A DNA stretch of 44,406 bases from Chrysochromulina tobinii (taxonomy: Eukaryota; Haptophyta; Prymnesiales; Chrysochromulinaceae), in assembly GCA_001275005.1 (NCBI GenBank), contig JWZX01003019.1:1-44406 (forward strand), read 5' to 3'. The notes below the pieces were generated by a model. It ran no database searches. It worked only from the letters and a program-made list of their open reading frames with translations, and had not been told where the DNA came from. Shown here piece after piece: positions 26,728 to 38,384 of the stretch (positions are counted from its first letter, which is position 1; each line of letters opens with the position of its first letter). A program made the position numbers and the translations under genes.

Positions 26728-29700
26728 ATGGCGCTCGCCGTCAAGGTAGTCGGCGCACTCAACATCGAGGCCTCGTACGAAGCGTTCCACGTCGTCGTGC
26801 ACCTGCAGGCAGCTGATGGCCGCCACCTCGCCTCGGTGCGCACCGGCAACGCGGCCGAGGTGGCACCCGGAGCGGGTGCGATGTGGAACGAGGAGCTCGT
26901 GCTGCCCATCTCGAACGATGCCGGTTCGGAGGTCGCGAGCGTGCTCTTCGAGCTCCAGGGCGGCAGTGCCAGGGACTCAGCGGCGCACGGCATCGGCTCA
27001 GCAGCCATCGACTGGCCGACCGTGTGTACCAATGCGGTGGGCGACGGCTGGGCGACGGAGCCACCGCTGCTCGCGGCGCACGGCGTGCCCAATGGCAGCC
27101 GGCTCCTCGTGCGCCTGCTCCACGTCGACGCGGCTGCCTCGGCGGCCAAGCTCAAGCAGCTCAAGGCTCAAGTGTCCGAGGCCATCTCGGTGACGGGACG
27201 CGAGCGCCAGGCGCTGCTGTCTGCGGCGACGGAGCACACGCGGCAACTCAGCTCGACGCGCACGCAGCTCACGCTCAAGCTGCGCACCGTCTCGCAGAAG
27301 GCCACCGAGAAGGAGGTCGGAGACTTTCGCGCCGCGCTCGAGTCGCGTCTACAGGCGGCGCGTTCGGGACGCGACGCCGCCCTGGTGAACTTCAATGTGC
27401 TGCACCAGCAGGCGCTGAGGAAGGCGATGCCGCGAGTGCACGAGCGGCTCAATCGAGAGGCGCGCCAGCAGAGGGAGGCCATTGGGCGCGTGGGCGGCAA
27501 GGCGCGCGAAACGGAGGCTAAGATGAGAGCCGAGCGACGTCAGCAGTGGCAGGTGAGATGGCCTCTGAGGGCCTCTGAGGACCTCTGATGACCTCTGAGG
27601 ACCAGACCTGATGACCAGACCTCTCTTGAGTGCGCCTCGGAGTGCGCGCGCCTTGGAGCGCCGAGTACCCCTTTCCTGACGCCGCGTCCCGTCGCCGGTC
27701 GCAGGTGACAATTGTCAACGAGCGCGAACGTTCGTTACTCGCTGCCAGCCAGAAGGCAGCGCGCGCTGCGCACCGCCTGCAGGTGGCCTTCAAGCGAGCG
27801 GCAGCCCATGAGGGGTCGACCCTCGGACGTAGGCTACGTCGGATCGGGCTGGACGCCGAGGAGGCGGCCACAAAGGAATGCGCGGCGCTCCAGCCTGCAG
27901 GGGACCTGCTGGCGAAGCAGATTGGTCGAGGCCGCGCGGAGATCGACGCTGAGGCAGCGGAGGCGGTGAGTGCAGTGCGCCTCGAGGTGAATCGATTGGC
28001 CGCCGAGTGGTCGAATAGCCTGGCGGCCAGCTCGCGGGGCGCGCGCGAGGTGCAAGCGCACACGCTCCTAGAGCACCAGCAGGCCCACCGTGAGGCACGC
28101 GCCGCGCGCCGCGTCGTCGACAACTCGGCCGAGCAGACGAGGCGCGTCGCGATCTCGTCTCGCGAGAGCTCCCTCACCCAGCTCACGACCAATCTCGAGA
28201 AGGAGATTGAGGGCCTCGCTGGCTGGCTGGCGAAGCGCATCGAGGCGGCGAACGCGGCGGCGCAGGCGGCCCCCGCAGCGGGGGCCTTGTCGGCGCCGGT
28301 GGATTGGTCAGTGGCGGCGACGCGCTTCGAGGGCGAGGTGAGTGATCTGCGTGGCCGGATCGAGGCACAGCGCGTCAAGATGGGCGAGCTGCACACGCAG
28401 CTCTTCGTGGCGCGTGCCAAAGGCACGGCCACCCGCCAGGTGGCGGAGGTGATGAGGGCCGTCGAAGACCGGTGCGAGGAGATGATGGCGAGCGCCGCCG
28501 CTGTCGGAGACGATGCGGCAGGGAGCTTGCGCTGCGCGCTGGAGGGTCTGCTCGCCGAGGTTGGCCGCCAACACGACGCGTCGCTCGCGCAGACTGCCGT
28601 GGATGCGGACGCGTACGAGCGGGCGCTCGTCGCGCCGTCGGTGCGCGACGCGCCCAAGCACGAGGAGCTGCTTCGTCAGCTCGAGCACGAGCTCAGCCTG
28701 CAGACGCAGCTCTCGCTCTCCCGCCCAAACGAGTGGTTTGAACTGCTCGGGCGCAAGCTCAAACTCGACGAGCATGAGGTGGCCGAGTGGCGGGAGCGCG
28801 CCGCCGTGGGCACCGCGCGCCACACGGAAGAGCTCTCAGCGCTTGAGGCGCGAGCGGCGGAGGAGGTGGCAGCGGAGGAGGGGCTACAGGCTGCGCGTGA
28901 GGGCGCACTCATTGCAGACGCTTCCGCAGCGGTCCACCGGATGGCGCACGAGCGGCGCGAGCGCCTGCGGGAGCTTCCGATGCCCGAGCTCGCGTCCGTC
29001 ATCCGAGAGGCCGTCGAGAAGACGGCAAGGAGCGGCGAGACGATGGCGCTCGAGCGCCGGCGCGCCGCGTTTGAACGGCTCGACCTTTCCCGCCCAAAGC
29101 TGCCTGCGCCGGCGATTGTTGGCGCACGGCCCAAGGGCAGTGGCGGCGGCGCGGCGGCGCACGCGCAGGGCGAAAGCTTGGACGGCCGTCGCCACCCATC
29201 GCGCCGTACCGGTACGGCGGACGTCGCCGCAGACGAGGCCGAGGGTTTCGTCACCGGCGCCGAGTCGGAGCTTCTCTTGAGGCTCCGCGAGACTTTCCAT
29301 CAGTTGGCGGCGGAGGCGACGGCGACGCAGCCGTACGCGGCGGCCGCGAGCTCGCTGCAGCTCGACTGGGCCGAGGAGGCGGCCGAAGGGAAGCACGGGC
29401 TGCCGGCCCTCGAGACGCGCCAGCTGCGCGATCTCGAGGCGGAGCTCGCTACCAGTCTGCGCGAGACCATTCGAGAGGAGCACCTCGAGTTCGCCGCCAA
29501 GGTCAAGGCCCTCGCTGAGGAGCGCGAGGAGCTCCGCGCGGCCGCGAGCGCCGCGCCGCCGCAGTCGCCCACGAAAGCGCTCGATTCGGCGCCTCCAGTG
29601 CGCAAGGCAGAGGCGCGTGTAACTGCCGCCCGCGCGGAGCTCGCGCCTATCACAGCTTCTGAGCTCAACCGGAGCTTGGGTTCGCCCACGAGAGCGCTCG

Positions 29701-31220
29701 TCAGCGCCAATGCGCCCAAGCGGCGCGCGTTTGACGAAGCCCTCGAGGAGCAGCGTCGGGTGCGTCGGGAGGCCGTGCGCGCGCTGATCGCGGAGCGTGA
29801 GGACGGGGCAGCGGCGAGCGGCGCGCTACGCGCCACGGCGCTCGAGGCGCGCACGGACGCAGCGAGATCTGAGCTCGACAAGGGCAATCGTGAGTTCAGC
29901 GCCAAGCTCGACGAGAAGATCGCTGCGGCGCGGCTGCGGCTCGAGCCGGCGCGTAAGCGGCTCGCAGCCTCGAAGCGCTCATGTGCGGCGGAGCTGCTCG
30001 CCGGGCTGGTGGAGGAGTCTGAGGAGGCGTCCTTGGGTCTCGTCAGATACAATCTCAAGGCCAAGGAGGCCAAGGAGGCGGCGTGGGCTCGGCGGGTGGA
30101 GGCGCTCGTGAGAGCGCACGAGGCCGAGGCGGCCGAGCTCGCCGCAACCCGCGCGAGCTTGCTCGAGCATCTCTCGCACCAGAGCGGTTGGGCCGACGGC
30201 TTCGTGCCTACCCTCGTGGCCGTCGGGGCGCTGGGTGAGCCGCCAGCGCCGCCGCCGCCCTTCCCGCCATCCAAGCCCGCGCGCGAGATCACCGACGAGC
30301 TCCGAGATCTCAATCTCCCCGAGGGGATCGACGAACCCCGACTCCCGCGGTTGAGCTCCAACCCTCTGCCCACCGCCTCGGCGCGCGCGCGGGCGGCGTT
30401 TGTGAAGCGGCCGCTGCTCCTGAGCGCGCTCGCGCCGCGCTCGATCCCGGCGGCCAAACCGCGCCCGCCCGCGCCTCTCGAGCCGGTGGACGTGAACGCG
30501 GTGCTCGAGGAGCTCGGCACGGCGCTCCAACTCGACGGCAGCGACAAGGGCGGCGGCGCTCACGGCGGCGCGTGGGTGTGGGAGCGCGCGTCGCTGGAGC
30601 GCGCGCGAGCGCTGCATGCGCCGCTCTCCCGCGCGCGCGCGCCCCGTGCGCCGTCGCTCCCGCCTGAGGAGGACCTCTCGCCCGAGGCGCTCCGCGCAGC
30701 GGCTGTCAAGGCCGCGACGACGGCCGAGGGCGAGACGGAGGATGCGAAGCTCGCGCGCGAGATCGCGCAGCTCGAGCGGCACGTGGAGCAGCGTGCGGCC
30801 CAGAAGCGTGCCCTCGAGGCCCAGGCGGCGGAGCGCGTCAAGGCTCAGCGGTTCGCGCAGCTCGCGGCGGCGCGTGAGCGTGCGGAGGCGGAGCTCACAC
30901 AGGCCCAGCAGGCTTTCGAGCGCGAGGAGTACAGCATGCAGGAGCTGACGGCCCAGGCCAAAGCGATGGCGGTCGCGCGGATACAGGACCGAATGCGCGC
31001 CGAGGCGGCCGCCAATGGCGGCGTGGCCGCGCGCATCTGGTCCGAGGCGCTGTTGCGTCGTCAGTCCGAGGAGGCGAGGAGCCACGGGCGACGGCTCCGG
31101 CACGAGGCCCACGCGGCGGCGAGCAGCACGCTCGGCGAGCGCGGCGAGGCGTCCAAGGAGCAGCTCGCGAGTATGCGCGAGCTCATGGCCACGCTGAGCG
31201 CCATCGCCGAGGAGCACTAG
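26728..31220 (+). CDS. C2-like domain plus very long coiled-coil protein
   Basis: The exons are 26728-27552 and 27705-31220, joined in phase 0 (QWQ/VTI), giving 1,446 residues. Residues about 1-135 resemble a C2 beta-sandwich: ALAVKVVGALNIEASYEAFHVVVHLQ, then WNEELVLPIS, then EVASVLFELQG, and a final SRLLVRLLHVD. It lacks the usual Asp calcium ligands, so lipid or protein binding without calcium is more likely. Almost all the rest is Ala/Glu/Arg-rich coiled coil. A Pro-rich break lies near 30235-30300 (GEPPAPPPPFPPSKPA). The design resembles basal-body, ciliary or vesicle-tethering scaffolds, but no orthologue is identified. Confidence 0.8.
27553..27704 (+). other. phase-0 intron with decamer minisatellite
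   Basis: The donor is TGGCAG|GTGAGA and the acceptor GGTCGCAG|GTGACA. It is 152 nt long. From about 27559 to 27625 it holds a tandem array of GCCTCTGAGG, ACCTCTGATG and similar units, followed by GACCAGACCT repeats. It carries stops in frame with exon 1. Confidence 0.92.
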
Positions 31221-32200: not shown

Positions 32201-32405
32201 GAGCCGACTCCTGTCGTGAAGAACGAAACCGTCTTCCACGCCGCCGGCGACCCGAACTCAAGACGTTGTGTGTGCACTTCGAATGGCTATTCGACTTCAG
32301 TCTACCTGCAATGTAACTTTCTGTCAAACTTGCGGATTGGTCGGGCGAGTCGGCACGGCACCTCGACAGTCTACACGTGCACGCGTGGCACAAACGCGTT
32401 TTGCC
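32201..32405. promoter_or_regulatory. bidirectional promoter with an inverted CCAAT box
   Basis: It lies between divergent starts at 32200 and 32406. ATTGG at 32336-32340 (sense GACCAATCCG on the minus strand) fits the NF-Y consensus core RRCCAATSR closely, 66 bp before the ATG of the NF-Y fusion. A chance match in 205 bp is quite possible. Confidence 0.4.
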
Positions 32406-34360
32406 ATGGCGCGTGAGCTTCTACAAGTCCGTGCCTCTGATGGCGTAACTATCGACCATCAATCCTCGAGCGTGCCGCTGTTGCAACTTCGTGAGCCCGT
32501 GACGCTGGCGTGCGGGCACAATTTTGAGCTGGCGCTCTTGAAGGCACACTTTAGGGCGGGCGCCCACCAATGTCCGGGCTGCGGCGCGCTCGTAGGCATC
32601 GAGGCGGACGAGCTCAGGATCAACGCCGAAGTCCTGCATTTGATCCTGAAGCTGCGGCCGCCGCCGCCGCCTCCACCGGTACCGGGGGCGCAGCCATTGC
32701 AGGTGGTGGCGGGGGACTTGGCTGCGGGCACGGAGAGCCCGTCGCGCGCGGACGCTGCGGCTGCGGCAGTTCTCGCCGGTGTTGCAATGTCGACCGTCGC
32801 CGCTGTCGACCGCAGCTCCAACCTTCGCAGCAGCTTCGGAACCGGCGCTGCCGGCGCCACCTGTGCGCCCTCTCTGCCTCTGGTCGTCAGGGTCGACTCG
32901 GGCAGTAACAAGGGCATGTCGCCGCTTGCGTCGCGCGTGCGTACCGGCCTCCCAACTTCGTACCCCTTTTGCCGCGACTCGGCCCAGGTGGAGGCCGTGA
33001 CGGCGACGTACTTCGCGCGGCAGCTCACGGCGGTCATCGCCCGTAGTCATCAGGGCGAGGCGCTCAGCGAGCTGCCGATCTCGCTGACGAAACGCGTGAT
33101 GAAGCAGGATGCGGTCAACATGCATTTGCGTATGGTGAGCGCCGAGGCCGTCGACTTGATGGCCTGCGGCAACGAGCTCTTCATAGGGCTGGTCACCGAA
33201 CTGGCATGGCATGTGTCCACGTTGCCGGGCAAGCGCGTGACCGTCGACTTACGCGACCTGCAGGTGGGCTGAGTGCCCCAGAGTGCTTCTGAGCGCCCCT
33301 GAGTGCTTCTCTGAGTGCCCCTGAGTGCTTCTGAGTGCCCCTGAGTGCCTCTGAGTGCCCCTGAGTGCTTCCGAGCGCCTCTGAGTGCCTCTCTGAGTGC
33401 CTCTCTGAGTGCCTCCCATGGTTGCCTCTCGCGAGCTTCAGAATGCGGTCAGCTCGACGAGCAAGCTCGACTTTTTGTACGAATTCTCCCTCCAGAGCGA
33501 CCTGCGCGCCGCCGAGTCGCCAGACGGTGGGAGGAGCGTCGAGGAGCAGTTGCGAGCGTTCGACACGCATCGCGAACGCTCGCCAGCTGCCTCGCATCCG
33601 CGCGCGACGCGAGGAGAAGGCCCACGCGCTTGCCAGTGGCAAACTTTCCGGCCGCTCGCATGCATCTCGTCGGCTGCATGCAATGAAACGGCAGCGTGGG
33701 CTTGGGGGGCGCTTCCTCGGGCGTGCTGAGGAAGATGCCGTCCAGATGCTCGTTGGGCAGGGGAGCGATGATGGATCGCTGTCCGCCCTCCGGCGTCTTG
33801 ACAGCGCTGCAAGCTGCGCGAGTGACGCATCGGCCGCAACGTTGGGCAACGGTGCTCAAGATGGTTCGTTCACATGCAAGATGGGGGCGCCGTTGCCGGG
33901 GGCGACATTGCTGGCCGCCGCCGCCGCTGCCACCTGGACGGTCGCGCCCGGCATGGCGCCCGGCTCACCAATGACCCTCGGCGTGCCACGCGCCGAGTTG
34001 AGCTCGTCGGTACCGGTGCATGCTCAGGCCGTCTCCTCGCTCAAGCGCGACCATGCGCATCTCTGCCCGACTTGGGAGGGCCGAGAGGGCGCTCGGGACG
34101 GCGCTCGGGGCGGCGCTCGGGACTGCGCTCGGGACGGCGCTCGCCCGACTTGGGAGGGCCGAGAGGGGGAAGGCTCAGGGGCTAGCATGCCTCTGGCTAG
34201 CGTGCCTCTGGCTGGTGTTGTGCGCAGCCGTCTGCGTGAGAGCGTGCTGAGCGTCCCGGCGCACGACGACGCTGCTCACGACGACGCTGCGCACGAAGTT
34301 CTGACGATCCTCTCCCGTGTGTCGAGTGATCCCGGGCCGTCGACGAGCTACGCAACGGCG

Positions 34361-34396
<36 letters not shown>

Positions 34397-35167
34397 GCGG
34401 CGGCAGTGGTGGCGAAGGCAAGCGCACCAAGGCAAGCGCATGGCGGACCCCGTTTTGAGAGAACAGGCTGCTCGTGGCAATCCCTCGGCGCCGAAAGGGC
34501 GGCTGGGTCCACTGTGGGCGCGCTCGGCGTGCTCGCGGCGGGCGCATTGTATGAGCAACAGCAGCAGCAGCAGCAGCAGCACCGCCATCAGCAGCATCAG
34601 CAGCATCAGCAGCACCAGCAGCACCAGCAGCACCAGCAGCACCAGCAGCACCAGCAGCACCAGCAGCACCAGCAGCACCAGCAGCACCAGCAGCACCAGC
34701 AGCACCAGCAGCACCAGCTCAGCGGCGGCGGCGGCAGCCCGGCTTCTCAGGTCGACCGTGAGCGATCTGTATTCCCACTCGCGAATGTGACACGTGTCAT
34801 GGGTCAGAATCTGCCCGCGGGCACGAAGATCTCCAAGGAGGCCAAGGAGGCCATGTGCGAGATGGCCGTTGAGCTCACGGCCTTTGTCTCGATGGAAGCA
34901 GCCATGCTCGCCGCGCACGAGTCCTCGCGCTCGATCTCGGCCGAGTGCCTCCTCGATGCCTTCAAGAGGCTCGACCTCGGGAGCTTCGCGCCGCCGCTCC
35001 AGATGTGGTTGGTAGGGCGCGCCGTGAAGGCTGAGCCCCAGATGATGCCTGATGCGGCAGCCAACTACACGGCGTCCGCTGTGGCCGATCTGCTCTTTAC
35101 CGAAGTGGAGGATGACGTGAATCAGAACGTCTATCATGACGCGGCCCCTGCCAGGGCCATGGGCTGA
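32406..35167 (+). CDS. single-locus NF-Y: RING/U-box-like - NF-YC - NF-YA - NF-YB fusion
   Basis: NF-Y is the trimeric CCAAT-box transcription factor. Exon 1 (32406-33263, 286 residues) has a RING/U-box-like module at about 23-85 (EPVTLACGHNF, CPGCGALVG) and an NF-YC histone fold from about 195 (ELPISLTKRVMKQ, LRMVSAEAVDLMA, ELFIGLVTELAW). Exon 2 (from 33442) completes the fold with NAVSSTSKLDFLYEF, aligning without gaps to NF-YC. NF-YA follows at 33566-33721: ANARQLPRIRARR is the NF-YB/C-binding helix, and HASRRLHAMKRQRGLGGRF the DNA-binding part. The same frame continues through low complexity and a Gln-His tract to an NF-YB fold at 34772-35011 (FPLANVTRVMGQNLP, KISKEAKEAMCEMAVELTAF). NF-YC is in frame 1, NF-YA/B in frame 2, so a +1 change near 33477-33568 is required. 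As one chain it is about 860 residues. Confidence 0.85.
33264..33441 (+). other. phase-0 intron inside the NF-YC histone fold, with decamer minisatellite
   Basis: The donor is CTGCAG|GTGGGC and the acceptor GCTTCAG|AATGCG. Its 178 nt hold a long GCCTCTGAGT/GCCCCTGAGT array at about 33268-33417. Splicing joins VDLRDLQ to NAVSSTSKLDFL, restoring the last NF-YC helix at the exact spacing of the family. Confidence 0.93.
34556..34718 (+). repeat. CAG and CAGCAGCAC repeat coding a Gln-His tract
   Basis: A pure CAG run is followed by about 14 nine-base CAGCAGCAC-type units (Gln-Gln-His). It lies between NF-YA and NF-YB. Gln-rich regions are typical activation domains of NF-YA and NF-YC in animals. 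The tract is likely length-variable. Confidence 0.92.
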
Positions 35168-35620
35168 GGTCGCCGGAGGAACGCGCCTCAACCAATGCAC
35201 GAGGGGAGGCACAGGTCAGGCGAGAGGTAATGCGCCCTCCTCTGAGCATGAACGTTTCTCGAGGGTGCCGATGGGGGGGGGGGGCGCGACTGCCGCACCA
35301 CGGAACGTAACGCGCAGGGGAGTGCCGTATCATATGTATACGTGTTCGGACGCCCACGCCAGACGCGCGCGGCACCACCGGAGTGTTGACGAGACCACAG
35401 CACCGCGCACGACAGTGGCGCGGTAACCGCGGTGCGGCGTGCAGTGTGGCCCGCGGCCGTCACCGGACACCGCCCGCCGGGCGATCGCACCAAACCCATT
35501 GCGTTACCGTCGCTTATTATTGCGATGTAGAGCCGACCGGCGCGCCCCGGTGTACCGCACGCGCGGTGTCGGGGTATGCCAAAAGAGTCAGACGCTCCAA
35601 CCCTAACTCTAACCCTATCC
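35168..35620. other. convergent intergenic region with G-run and telomere-like tract
   Basis: A run of about ten G lies near 35273-35284. At about 35597-35626 there is a degenerate (CCCTAA)n tract that reaches the stop codon of the minus-strand gene at 35621. No gene is seen between them. Confidence 0.5.
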
Positions 35621-35626
35621 CTAACC
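35597..35626 (-). repeat. interstitial telomere-like tract (TTAGGG variants)
   Basis: Read on the minus strand it contains GGTTAGGGATAGGG followed by TTAGAGTTAGGG, about four hexamer units with two substitutions. The TAG stop codon of the membrane-protein gene is the TAG of the first GGTTAG. The tract is not at a sequence end. Confidence 0.8.
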
Positions 35627-36406
35627 ATAAAGGCGTACAATAAGAGCAACAGAAACAGCCAAAGCCATCGCACGTAGACCGGGCGCAGCTCTCACCGTCA
35701 GGCTTCGGGAGGATGTTGGAGCCAGACCAGACGTCATGGTACCCCACGCCCTTCTGATCGCCTCGTTCGTAGTATTGTACGCCTTATCGAGGGCGTCTTT
35801 CGATGTCTCGATCGACTCGTCCGCGGCCTTGCGAATCTGCTCGAGAGCGCGGCCGTCCCTTTCAGCGCGTTCGATCTGTTCGAAAACGGCACTCGTCATG
35901 TTGGCAATGTCTTCTGCGGCTCTGGTCGAGGACCTTTTTATATCCTCCAGCTTGCTGCAGAAGGCCCCGGACGCGACCGCGAGGGTGCCAGCGAGCGGAA
36001 GCCCCTGCTTGAGGATGCTGAGGAGCTGCCCACGGGCTCCAAGGCTTTGGAGTGTCGCGAAGAGAGATTCCTTCTCAACATTGGGAAAGGTCGCTTGCCA
36101 GGCGGCTGCAGCGCTCTCAGCTTCGACGCCACCCTCGGCGAACCCGAAAGCGGGAATGATGGCAGCAACGGCAGCGAGCAGTGCGGTACCACTGAGCGCC
36201 ACGCCTGCCATTTCATACAGGCACACTGGTGGAACGGTGAAATTGAAATCGAGTTCCATCATCATGAGTTCATCCTCGAGTTCCGTCTGGCTTGATTTGA
36301 TGCAGGCATACACGACGGCCGATGCGCATGCGATGCCCAGGAGCGTGACCCACAGTGCCGATGGTTGATTCCTCGTTGGCCGAGCGAGAAGAGGTTCCGA
36401 TAACAT
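35621..36406 (-). CDS. membrane protein with coiled-coil region, function unknown
   Basis: The 261-residue protein starts at ATG 36406 (MLSEPLLARPTR). It has membrane helices at about 20-40 (ALWVTLLGIACASAVVYAC), 65-90 (MAGVALSGTALLAAVAAIIPAFG), about 135-150 (PLAGTLAVASGAF) and the last residues (ALAVSVALIVRLYG). Between the third and the last lies a long helical segment with repeated charged residues (CSKLEDIKRSSTRAAEDIA, EQIERAERDGRALEQIRKAADESIETSKDALDKA) like a methyl-accepting or apolipophorin-type coiled coil. Family not recognised. The stop codon lies in a telomere-like repeat, so the natural C-terminus may have been altered. A CTTGA tract lies upstream. Confidence 0.6.
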   Translation of the reverse strand: MLSEPLLARPTRNQPSALWVTLLGIACASAVVYACIKSSQTELEDELMMMELDFNFTVPPVCLYEMAGVALSGTALLAAVAAIIPAFGFAEGGVEAESAAAAWQATFPNVEKESLFATLQSLGARGQLLSILKQGLPLAGTLAVASGAFCSKLEDIKRSSTRAAEDIANMTSAVFEQIERAERDGRALEQIRKAADESIETSKDALDKAYNTTNEAIRRAWGTMTSGLAPTSSRSLTVRAAPGLRAMALAVSVALIVRLYG

Positions 36407-36802
36407 CAAAGGACGTGCCCGCTCCACACACGCACCCTGGAGGGGAACATCATGATGTTTCGCCCGACGGCAAGGCAAGTCTGCAAGGCAAGTCAAGTCA
36501 AGTCAATGACCACCACTTTGTGAAACTGCGGAAACCATTTACTAGCAGGCTTTTGCCGGGTCTACGACTAGTACATAAGTACGATGTAACGGTACGCAGA
36601 CCGGTACGATACTCTAGGCGTCCTAGGGGGGTTCCGGCGGGTTCGGGGTTCCAATCGCGCCAAACGCGGAAACGCGAACCGCCCCCGCGCCCCGGTGCAT
36701 ACGGCCCCTGGGGTCAACGCCGACCGATGGCGTCGCCCGCCCCTCGTTAGGTACGGTTCAAGGTACGGTCCGGTGAGACAAAAGACAAAGACTTTTCTAC
36801 GA
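36407..36802. other. intergenic region with CTTGA/CTTGC tract
   Basis: The tract at 36471-36507 reads, in minus-strand sense, TTGACTTGACTTGACTTGCC and further CTTGC units, 65-101 bases upstream of the ATG at 36406. The rest (36510-36802) shows no coding frame and lies downstream of the RRP45 stop. Confidence 0.5.
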
Positions 36803-37473
36803 CTACGATGCAGTGCCTGGGTCGAATACAGACCGAACCGTGACCGTCTCCTCCTCGTCGTCATCGTCACCCATGGTGGCGGCGGCAGTGGTGGCTCGCT
36901 TCTTGCGCTTCTTTTTACGATCCGAGCGGCTCGGCTCCGCCGCTGCATCCGCACGCTCCGCCGCCTTCTCCACCTCTGCCTCTGCCTCTGCCTCCGCTGG
37001 CTCCGCTGCCTCCGCACCATTCTGCGCCGCCGGCACTAATGGCACTGATGCCTCTGCCACTGCCTCCGCACCATCCGTCGCCGCCGGCACTGATGGCGGC
37101 GGCGGCGCTGATGGCGGCGGCGCTGACGGCGGCGGCGGCACACCGAGAGGCACGAGTGTCAGGGGAGGAAGGGCCATGGCGCCGAGGGTACGGCGCGCCT
37201 TGCGCCCAGTGCGCCGGAGTGTCTCCGCTGCCGCCGCGAGCCGCGCCGCGTGCTGTGCCAGCACCTCCTCGAGCGCAATCAAGCGCTCAGGGACAAGCGC
37301 CGCCGCGTGGCGGATGGCTTCGAGGAGGCGCGCAGGGGCGACCGGCAGGCCGCCTGGCTTGTGGAGCGCGCAGAGCTCCTGATGCTGGTTGAGCACCACC
37401 GTCAGCCTTCCCTCGAGCACCAGCTCCTCGCGATCGGACGGATCCACTACGGATAGCATCTCCGCCGACGCGC

Positions 37474-37504
<31 letters not shown>

Positions 37505-38152
37505 GCCACCGCCGCTGCCGCCGCCGCTTCCGCCGCGGAAGAAGCCGAGGCTGACTGCAACAGGCGTGTGGTGGAAGACGAGCGGCGTCGGCTCGCCTTG
37601 ATCCATCGAGAGCACCGATGCACTCGCCTCGTCACCCACGCCGCTCACCGACACGGGTGGCAGGCGCAGGTGGCGCAGTGCCACGAGCGCCGCAAAGGTG
37701 GCGGCGTCTGTCAGGTTGCCGCGGTCGTCGATCACAGTCACATCGGTGCGCACCGACCATACGTGCTTGCTCGCGACGACGCACAGCGACTCAACGTCGA
37801 TTGCCTGGCTCATGCGCAGCGCGCGGTCGAGGAGCCTCGACATCTCGACTGCTGCCTCGGGCGGCCGCCCTGCCTCGAAGGCGGGTGAGGCCATCGGCGA
37901 GAACTCGACGAAGAACTGAAGCACGCCTTCAGCCGGCCGGTCGGGATACGGCTCCACCAACTCAGCAGTCGCGACAGCAAGCACCTGCGTTGCACCCAAC
38001 TTCACCTGCACACTTCCTGCCACGGAACCGAGCGCCACCAGAAGAGGGCGCGCCTCGAGCGGCCGCCGGCCGTCGACACGCAAGCCGGAGGCGAGCGCGT
38101 TCGTGATGAATCGGGACTCTGAGGTCGATATGAGCGGCGGCGCGTGCTGCAT
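36803..38152 (-). CDS. RRP45: exosome core subunit RRP45/EXOSC9 (RNase PH-like)
   Basis: The 449-residue protein starts at MQHAPPLISTSESRFITNAL, matching the short N-terminal helix of RRP45. RNase PH domain 1 follows: LASGLRVDGRRPLEARPL, then VQVKLGATQVLAVATAELVEPYPDRP, then FFVEFSPMASPAFE, then EMSRLLDRALRMSQAID and VWSVRTDVTVIDDRGNLTDAA. RNase PH domain 2 follows (PLVFHHTPVAVSLGFF, VDPSDREELVLEGRLTVVLN), interrupted by a Gly-rich insert. The C-terminal 170 residues are helical, then Ala/Pro/Glu-rich, and end near a KKKRKKR basic motif that may direct it to the nucleus. In the exosome, RRP45 is a non-catalytic ring subunit for 3'-5' RNA decay. Length matches human EXOSC9 (439). Confidence 0.93.
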
Positions 38153-38384
38153 TTGTTCCGCTCGTGGCAAAAAAGGCGACGTCGCCACACCCTGCAACGC
38201 TTTTTTGGAAAGTAACCTGGTAGGGCCTCAGGTGCCACATGCAGACGTCCCACGCGAAATGCCAAAAGTGTGTCGCGTTACGCCCACAAAGGCGCGTCGT
38301 CGACCGCCTGAATTGTAAGGGCGGATCGCGAACCGCCCCTTGACGCTTGAGCGCTACGCGTTTCGAGGCGAGCCGGGCTCGACG
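38153..38384. promoter_or_regulatory. bidirectional promoter region
   Basis: It separates RRP45 (minus, ATG 38152) from the methyltransferase-like gene (plus, ATG 38385). A T/A-rich patch with TTTTTTGG lies near 38200. No named box is recognised. Confidence 0.4.

Follow-up and report, generated by a model that had tools for sequence, protein, structure and literature searches.

The window, that is, the whole stretch of 44,406 nucleotides analysed here (GC content 63.7%), carries on its forward strand a gene in which a RING-like domain is followed by the conserved domains of NF-YC, NF-YA and NF-YB (Table 1). NF-Y is a heterotrimer that is regulated through its separate subunits and the exchange among them. 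Here the subunits do not come from separate genes but from one gene, and in relatives of the encoded protein from one chain. The original prediction had placed NF-YC, NF-YA and NF-YB at this locus in the same position, strand and order, and matches to Pfam and to PDB sequences were obtained for each of them, confirming the three domains as described; since each part best matches its own subunit among the PDB sequences, the names given to the subunits were also correct. That description lacked the RING-like domain in front of NF-YC. The further claim that one gene encodes all three subunits is supported by sequence comparison, as NF-YC, NF-YA and NF-YB form a single chain in three of the six protein matches.

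Table 1. Features of the predicted fusion gene and the evidence on which each assignment is based.
Feature	Position	Strand	Basis
Whole gene, RING-like + NF-YC + NF-YA + NF-YB	32406-35167	+	within contig C1860
Exon 1: RING-like domain plus the larger share of the NF-YC histone fold	32406..33263	+	276/286 residues identical to P0001
RING/U-box-like domain	32472..32654	+	five-row profile retrieves TRIM5 RING
NF-YC histone fold, exon 1 share	33069..33263	+	PF00808 21.5 bits; HapE 1.6e-7 together with exon 2 share
Intron 1, 178 nt, GT-AG	33264..33441	+	splice-site reading, continuity of the NF-YC fold
Exon 2 through the stop: NF-YC tail, NF-YA, linker, NF-YB	33442..35167	+	past the step, open frame 33365-35167
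Last helix of NF-YC (NAVSSTSKLDFLYEF), in exon 2	33442..33486	+	alignment reaches the end of HapE and of 9rif_B
Frame-step site	33565..33577	+	one-base length difference from P0003, which is continuous there
NF-YA: A1 helix, A2 helix with GLGGRF loop	33575..33715	+	PF02045 33.9 bits; human NF-YA 3.4e-7
CAG/CAC tandem repeat, Gln-His linker between NF-YA and NF-YB	34559..34718	+	repeat listing
NF-YB histone fold	34766..35011	+	PF00808 35.7 bits; rice NF-YB11 3.7e-12

Exon 1 sits in the open frame 32220-33272, and its ATG at 32406 coincides with the start of P0001. Taken alone, its share of NF-YC barely exceeds the PF00808 cut-off of 21.4 bits, and it was overlooked by the whole-genome PF00808 scan. 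The spliced sequence, when searched against PDB sequences, matches HapE/NF-YC structures best, across the intron and through the last helix, as is typical of an NF-YC-type histone fold with its C-terminal helix. Splicing from the donor GT at 33264 to the acceptor AG at 33441 joins DLQ to NAVSSTSKLDFL, matching the point where NF-YC/HapE runs on, and this correct continuation of the fold supports the 178-nt intron. The original prediction, which joined NF-YC by an intron plus a "+1 step", was thus borne out for the intron, while the step turned out to be a length difference specific to this copy and not part of the gene structure. P0001 terminates at DLQVG and P0003 starts within intron 1, so that the P0003 entry looks like a plain ORF call and not a gene model. 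The intron consists mostly of a 10/20-nt tandem repeat that is found again elsewhere in the genome. Its unit (CTGAGTGCC..) recurs genome-wide, with L041, L042, L046, L047 and L049 among the loci, lies after a GT donor-like site in several of the 10 loci listed, and resembles the intron donor GTGAGTGCC, as though an intron could lengthen by making copies of its splice site.

NF-YA and NF-YB share a 600-codon open frame (33365-35167) that contains both Pfam matches, in agreement with the predicted uninterrupted frame of at least 570 codons, and the proposed HMM check of the frame from 33443 to 35167 found PF02045 (33.9 bits, cut-off 27, profile positions 5-56 of 56) as well as PF00808 (35.7 bits, cut-off 21.4), both above cut-off. 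Searched alone against PDB sequences, the NF-YA part retrieved human NF-YA; its A1 and A2 helices are both present in the window, and the linker between them is four residues shorter than in human NF-YA. The motif GXGGRF, described as CCAAT-reading in the accessible text of PMC11802806, occurs as GLGGRF in the window, P0002 and P0003, with SRRLHAMKRQRGLGGRF kept, and is lost in the alignment in P0004 (SLRGRF) and in P0005 and P0006 (both GLHGRF), the latter two of which have also lost the HAM histidine. Given this divergence of the loop in P0004-P0006 and the short A1-A2 linker, specificity may have moved. The Gln/His stretch after NF-YA is shorter in P0003 and absent from P0002, P0004 and P0005. 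The NF-YB part alone matched NF-YB structures best (3.7e-12), ahead of CHRAC-14 (2.5e-7) and NC2-beta (0.017), which identifies it as an NF-YB-type histone fold.

The first protein search, whose query ended before NF-YB, returned six proteins (P0001-P0006). The RING-like domain, NF-YC, NF-YA and NF-YB lie in one chain in three of the six (P0002, P0004 and P0005), whereas P0003 has three parts, namely the NF-YC tail, NF-YA and NF-YB; the original prediction's proposal to look for the fusion in relatives was therefore rewarded. P0006 comprises NF-YC and NF-YA with no NF-YB recognisable by Pfam, and P0001 is exon 1 only. NF-YB is present at the C-terminus in four of the six (P0002-P0005) even though the query did not contain it, which argues against a misassembly at the repeats of the window. 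P0004 and P0005, while only 43% and 42% identical to P0002, retain its four-domain order. The PF02045 cut-off of 27 is exceeded by P0003 and P0004 but not by P0002 (26.3), P0005 (20.2) or P0006 (18.1), with the motif aligning in all five. The order of the domains is constant among the relatives and the lengths of the linkers vary: the distance from the last helix motif of NF-YC to A1 of NF-YA is 16-32 residues in all five measurable proteins (16 in both P0005 and P0006), and that from NF-YA to NF-YB is 45-298 residues in four of the five, P0006 having no NF-YB, and about 350 in the window. A profile search added only the exon-1 pieces P0007 and P0008, and a search with the NF-YC/NF-YA region returned P0002, P0004 and P0003 and nothing new. 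As both later searches missed P0005 and P0006, and as scoring covered the 7999 (first search) and 8000 (profile search) candidates with the most words in common, the number of relatives is a lower bound. With P0002 as the single query, no relatives were found in viral contigs.

A five-row profile of the N-terminal domain retrieved the TRIM5 RING from PDB sequences (1e-7), and residues 41-100 of the predicted P0002 model, with block means of pLDDT between 87 and 94, match U-box/RING folds, the chains of which were retrieved with a Foldseek probability of 1.00 (TM-scores to the target of 0.61-0.67 and E-values of at least 0.046 in the eight best U-box/RING rows). Both the profile and the fold are thus RING-like and resemble RING/U-box E3 ligases such as TRIM5/TRIM21 and the plant PUB U-box proteins, whereas the RING-type Pfam matches of single proteins, in the window and its relatives, all remained under cut-off. 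Only C14, H16, C34 and C37, i.e. C-x-H and C-x2-C, are invariant in all five rows, so that one of the two RING zinc sites is kept while the residues of the other are absent, and the domain does not have the eight ligands and two sites of a RING. We take it to lack the canonical RING's zinc ligands C1-C2 and C5-C6, and its pattern presumably resembles that of the one-zinc SP-RING. In P0006, residues ~45-110, in front of the RING-like domain, appear Tudor-like by eye, with no such Pfam match listed.

The genome (53.15 Mb in 2253 contigs) was searched for separate NF-Y genes, as the original prediction had suggested, and genes of the NF-YA, NF-YB and NF-YC type were all found. PF00808 occurs at 18 places and PF02045 at five, numbers that are lower bounds as the window is counted once per list and its NF-YC exon was missed. 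C1354 (by residues and Pfam) and C1759 (by residues) are of the NF-YB type, C1317 (by residues and Pfam) is of the NF-YC type with C2234, C1892 and C2113 being NF-YC-like by eye, and C3 (by residues and Pfam) is of the NF-YA type; by eye, C1445 is a divergent NF-YA, and C2096 and C2183 are the second half of an NF-YA. Other than the contig of the window, none in the genome lists has both PF00808 and PF02045. P0002 gave 12 matches in the genome, its parts occurring together only in the window and otherwise at single-domain loci, and no second copy of the fusion was seen in the DNA and protein searches of the genome, the DNA search (40 of 434 first-look candidates scored) yielding a single full match, all further matches being pieces that cover repeats of the window. 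The fusion is thus an addition to stand-alone genes of all three types; with these encoded in the genome, subunits could still be exchanged, whereas the original prediction expected a single chain to remove combinatorial exchange.

The fused NF-YC fold is 84% identical to that of P0002, 55% to C1317 and 39% to HapE, and for the fused NF-YB fold the identity is 75% with P0002, 39% with a rice NF-YB and 30% with C1354. C1317 has the RIMKQDA and STSRLDFL stretches and differs from the fused NF-YC in having neither NF-YA nor NF-YB behind it, its contig being without a PF02045 match and its ORF containing one histone-fold stretch. Histone-fold trees were built from 12 and 9 rows. In them, all four rows of fused NF-YB cluster together (88/91) on a branch that is not starred, and those of fused NF-YC split into two clusters (92/89 and 88/95) that share an open fork with stand-alone C1317 and with the C2234 group. 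As such, these small trees do not establish a single origin of the fusion, no starred branch settling the matter and the NF-YC rows being split. Other histone-fold genes were noted in passing. C870, C1250 and C1257 form a small, diverged NF-YB-like family (C870 and C1257 are 76% identical over the fold), and C1354 and C1759 each contain an NF-YB-type frame of 246 residues, the compared parts of which are almost identical, and are duplicates or alleles. At L024 (C2203:21500-25500), two tandem frames share a histone-fold stretch that is identical over the 66 residues compared, one with a CXXC zinc finger (PF02008, 36.8 bits) and the other with C2H2 fingers (PF00096, 65.3 bits); these are further fusions of histone folds to DNA-binding domains, with partial DNA matches on other contigs.

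Structure models of two chains had a mean pLDDT of 41.4 and 50.1 and a pTM of 0.28 and 0.26, and are too weak to bear on assembly within the chain. Helices lie at the places of NF-YC, A1 and A2 of NF-YA, and NF-YB in both models, and the P0002 model retrieved NF-YB chains first in Foldseek (best 8.3e-4, two rows under 0.001). Rows that VIA-align placed on one histone chain, from model residue ~259 to ~627, mix parts of NF-YC and NF-YB.

The order of the gene, the intron across which NF-YC continues, and the same fused order in relatives have been shown here. Judging from the sequences, the single polypeptide with its RING-like, NF-YC, NF-YA and NF-YB parts probably represents a pre-assembled CCAAT factor that is encoded beside ordinary separate subunits. 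According to the accessible text of PMC7692634 and PMC11802806, ordinary NF-Y is built on a pair formed by its two histone folds; helix A1 of NF-YA binds to this pair, and A2 together with the GXGGRF motif recognises CCAAT from the minor groove. In the fusion, the NF-YC and NF-YB folds of one chain would pair together, with the long and variable stretch between NF-YA and NF-YB letting NF-YB fold back, A1, which follows NF-YC after 16-32 residues, could dock on the pair in cis, and A2 with the GLGGRF loop may then recognise CCAAT from the minor-groove side in the manner of ordinary NF-Y. The predicted product would have a 1:1:1 stoichiometry. The short NF-YC-NF-YA and the long NF-YA-NF-YB link suit such an assembly within one chain, and the combination of varying linkers with a constant four-domain order in P0002, P0004 and P0005 counts in favour of the single-chain reading, while the divergent NF-YA, the frame step of the window and the missing NF-YB of P0006 count against it. 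In addition, the RING-like domain might recruit an E2 loaded with ubiquitin or SUMO to the promoter on which the factor sits. Here we speculate, and only tentatively, that a protist lineage possesses a self-assembling single-chain CCAAT factor whose one-zinc RING modifies promoter chromatin, or the factor itself, with ubiquitin or SUMO; the same tentative reading would imply that a sequence-specific histone mimic and a chromatin-modifying enzyme are combined in one protein.

It is also conceivable, if unlikely, that the fusion is real but has diverged such that it no longer reads CCAAT, and titrates or redirects stand-alone NF-Y subunits through its histone folds or binds other DNA. The shortened A1-A2 linker, the changes of loop and histidine in P0004-P0006 and the coexistence of stand-alone subunits in the genome would fit such a regulator, but SRRLHAMKRQRGLGGRF is retained in the window, P0002 and P0003, and the presence of all three subunits in three of the six matches would not be needed for titration alone.

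In the window copy, the frame changes near 33571, between NF-YC and NF-YA. Up to this step (33442-33570), 42 of 43 residues are identical to P0003, a protein of 521 residues from another record that reads in one frame from the NF-YC tail through NF-YA to NF-YB without a break at the step, and from NF-YA to the end 428 of 519 alignment columns are identical, with 50 gap columns in the linkers. Given the continuous frame of P0003, the step represents a difference of one base in the length of the window copy and appears to be either a sequence error or a broken allele. GT/GC-AG pairs restoring the frame within 33442-33600 were enumerated, and the query of the first protein search contained one of them; a second intron and a programmed +1 frameshift at the step are both ruled out, as P0003 reads across it. 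Third-position GC exceeds that of the other two positions ahead of the step (0.84) and across NF-YB (0.78), but not in the repeat block (0.92, with 0.97 at another position) or in the two linker blocks past the step (0.71 versus 0.72 and 0.72 versus 0.75); it gives weak extra support to the length-difference reading, the real evidence on the step being the protein comparison with P0003. A broken or polymorphic window locus, with a true frameshift near 33571 and a fusion made in relatives only, would account for a step that P0003 does not have, yet we consider it improbable: the protein is kept on both sides, including 276 of 286 residues of exon 1, and a one-base error could be explained by 454 reads if the genome is the same as that of the haptophyte Chrysochromulina tobin, the assembly of which, according to the accessible part of PMC4580454, has 59 Mb in 3,472 contigs and 63.4% GC and was built from 454 and Illumina reads.

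That one mRNA or precursor is cut into separate NF-Y subunits, as a polyprotein or through alternative transcripts, is very improbable; the NF-YA-NF-YB linker is long and nothing observed forbids cutting, but the NF-YC-NF-YA link of 16 residues in P0005 and P0006 leaves scant room for separate genes. An artefact of assembly or gene calling, in which the intron repeat or the CAG/CAC repeat, each with many partial matches at other places in the genome, brought neighbouring genes together, has next to no probability and is already contradicted, misassembly at these repeats being ruled out by the same order in P0002, P0004 and P0005, which come from other records and have no Gln-His repeat, and by the correct continuation of NF-YC across the intron.

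The fusion shares all three conserved domains with the NF-Y/CBF/HAP2-3-5 complexes of human (4awl), Arabidopsis (6r2v) and Aspergillus (CBC, 4g91) and, in the window, P0002 and P0003, the CCAAT loop GXGGRF, but differs from them in being a single C-A-B chain where they have three genes, in its RING-like N-terminus and in its shorter A1-A2 linker. The NF-YC/CONSTANS chimeras in the PDB (7cvo and 7cvq) likewise combine an NF-YC fold with a second, DNA-reading protein in one chain; these are two-protein chimeras, deposited as such, whereas the fusion is a natural three-subunit gene. The original prediction knew of no description of such a fusion, and the titles and abstract beginnings of the open-access matches listed for NF-Y fusions and for haptophyte NF-Y name no natural one. 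In the accessible text of PMC4827209, the NF-Y subunits of three haptophytes are counted as separate families and Tisochrysis lutea is without NF-YA, and in PMC12936444, a survey of 320 plants including 20 algae, neither "fused" nor "fusion" occurs in the main text. Surveys that count NF-Y subunits as separate proteins could thus misread fusion-bearing lineages. If a natural single-chain NF-Y is true, its stoichiometry would have been fixed by evolution, the end of NF-YC and the start of NF-YA would be seen to tolerate a 16-residue link, and CCAAT recognition would be coupled to a RING-like domain. In addition, a single-chain NF-Y could provide structural and synthetic studies with a tool encoded by one gene.

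In the DNA around the gene, imperfect telomere-like CCCTAA repeats were seen by eye just downstream (35599-35627), followed on the reverse strand by a weak match to the interferon-induced 6-16 family (35621-36502; 28.2 bits against a cut-off of 29.1) and by an RNase PH-type exoribonuclease with a glycine/serine insert (36803-38227; PF01138 93.8 bits, PF03725 34.2 bits). Upstream, on the forward strand, lies an open frame of 1196 codons (27630-31220) that has no Pfam match at an E-value of 1 and appears charged and alanine-rich by eye.
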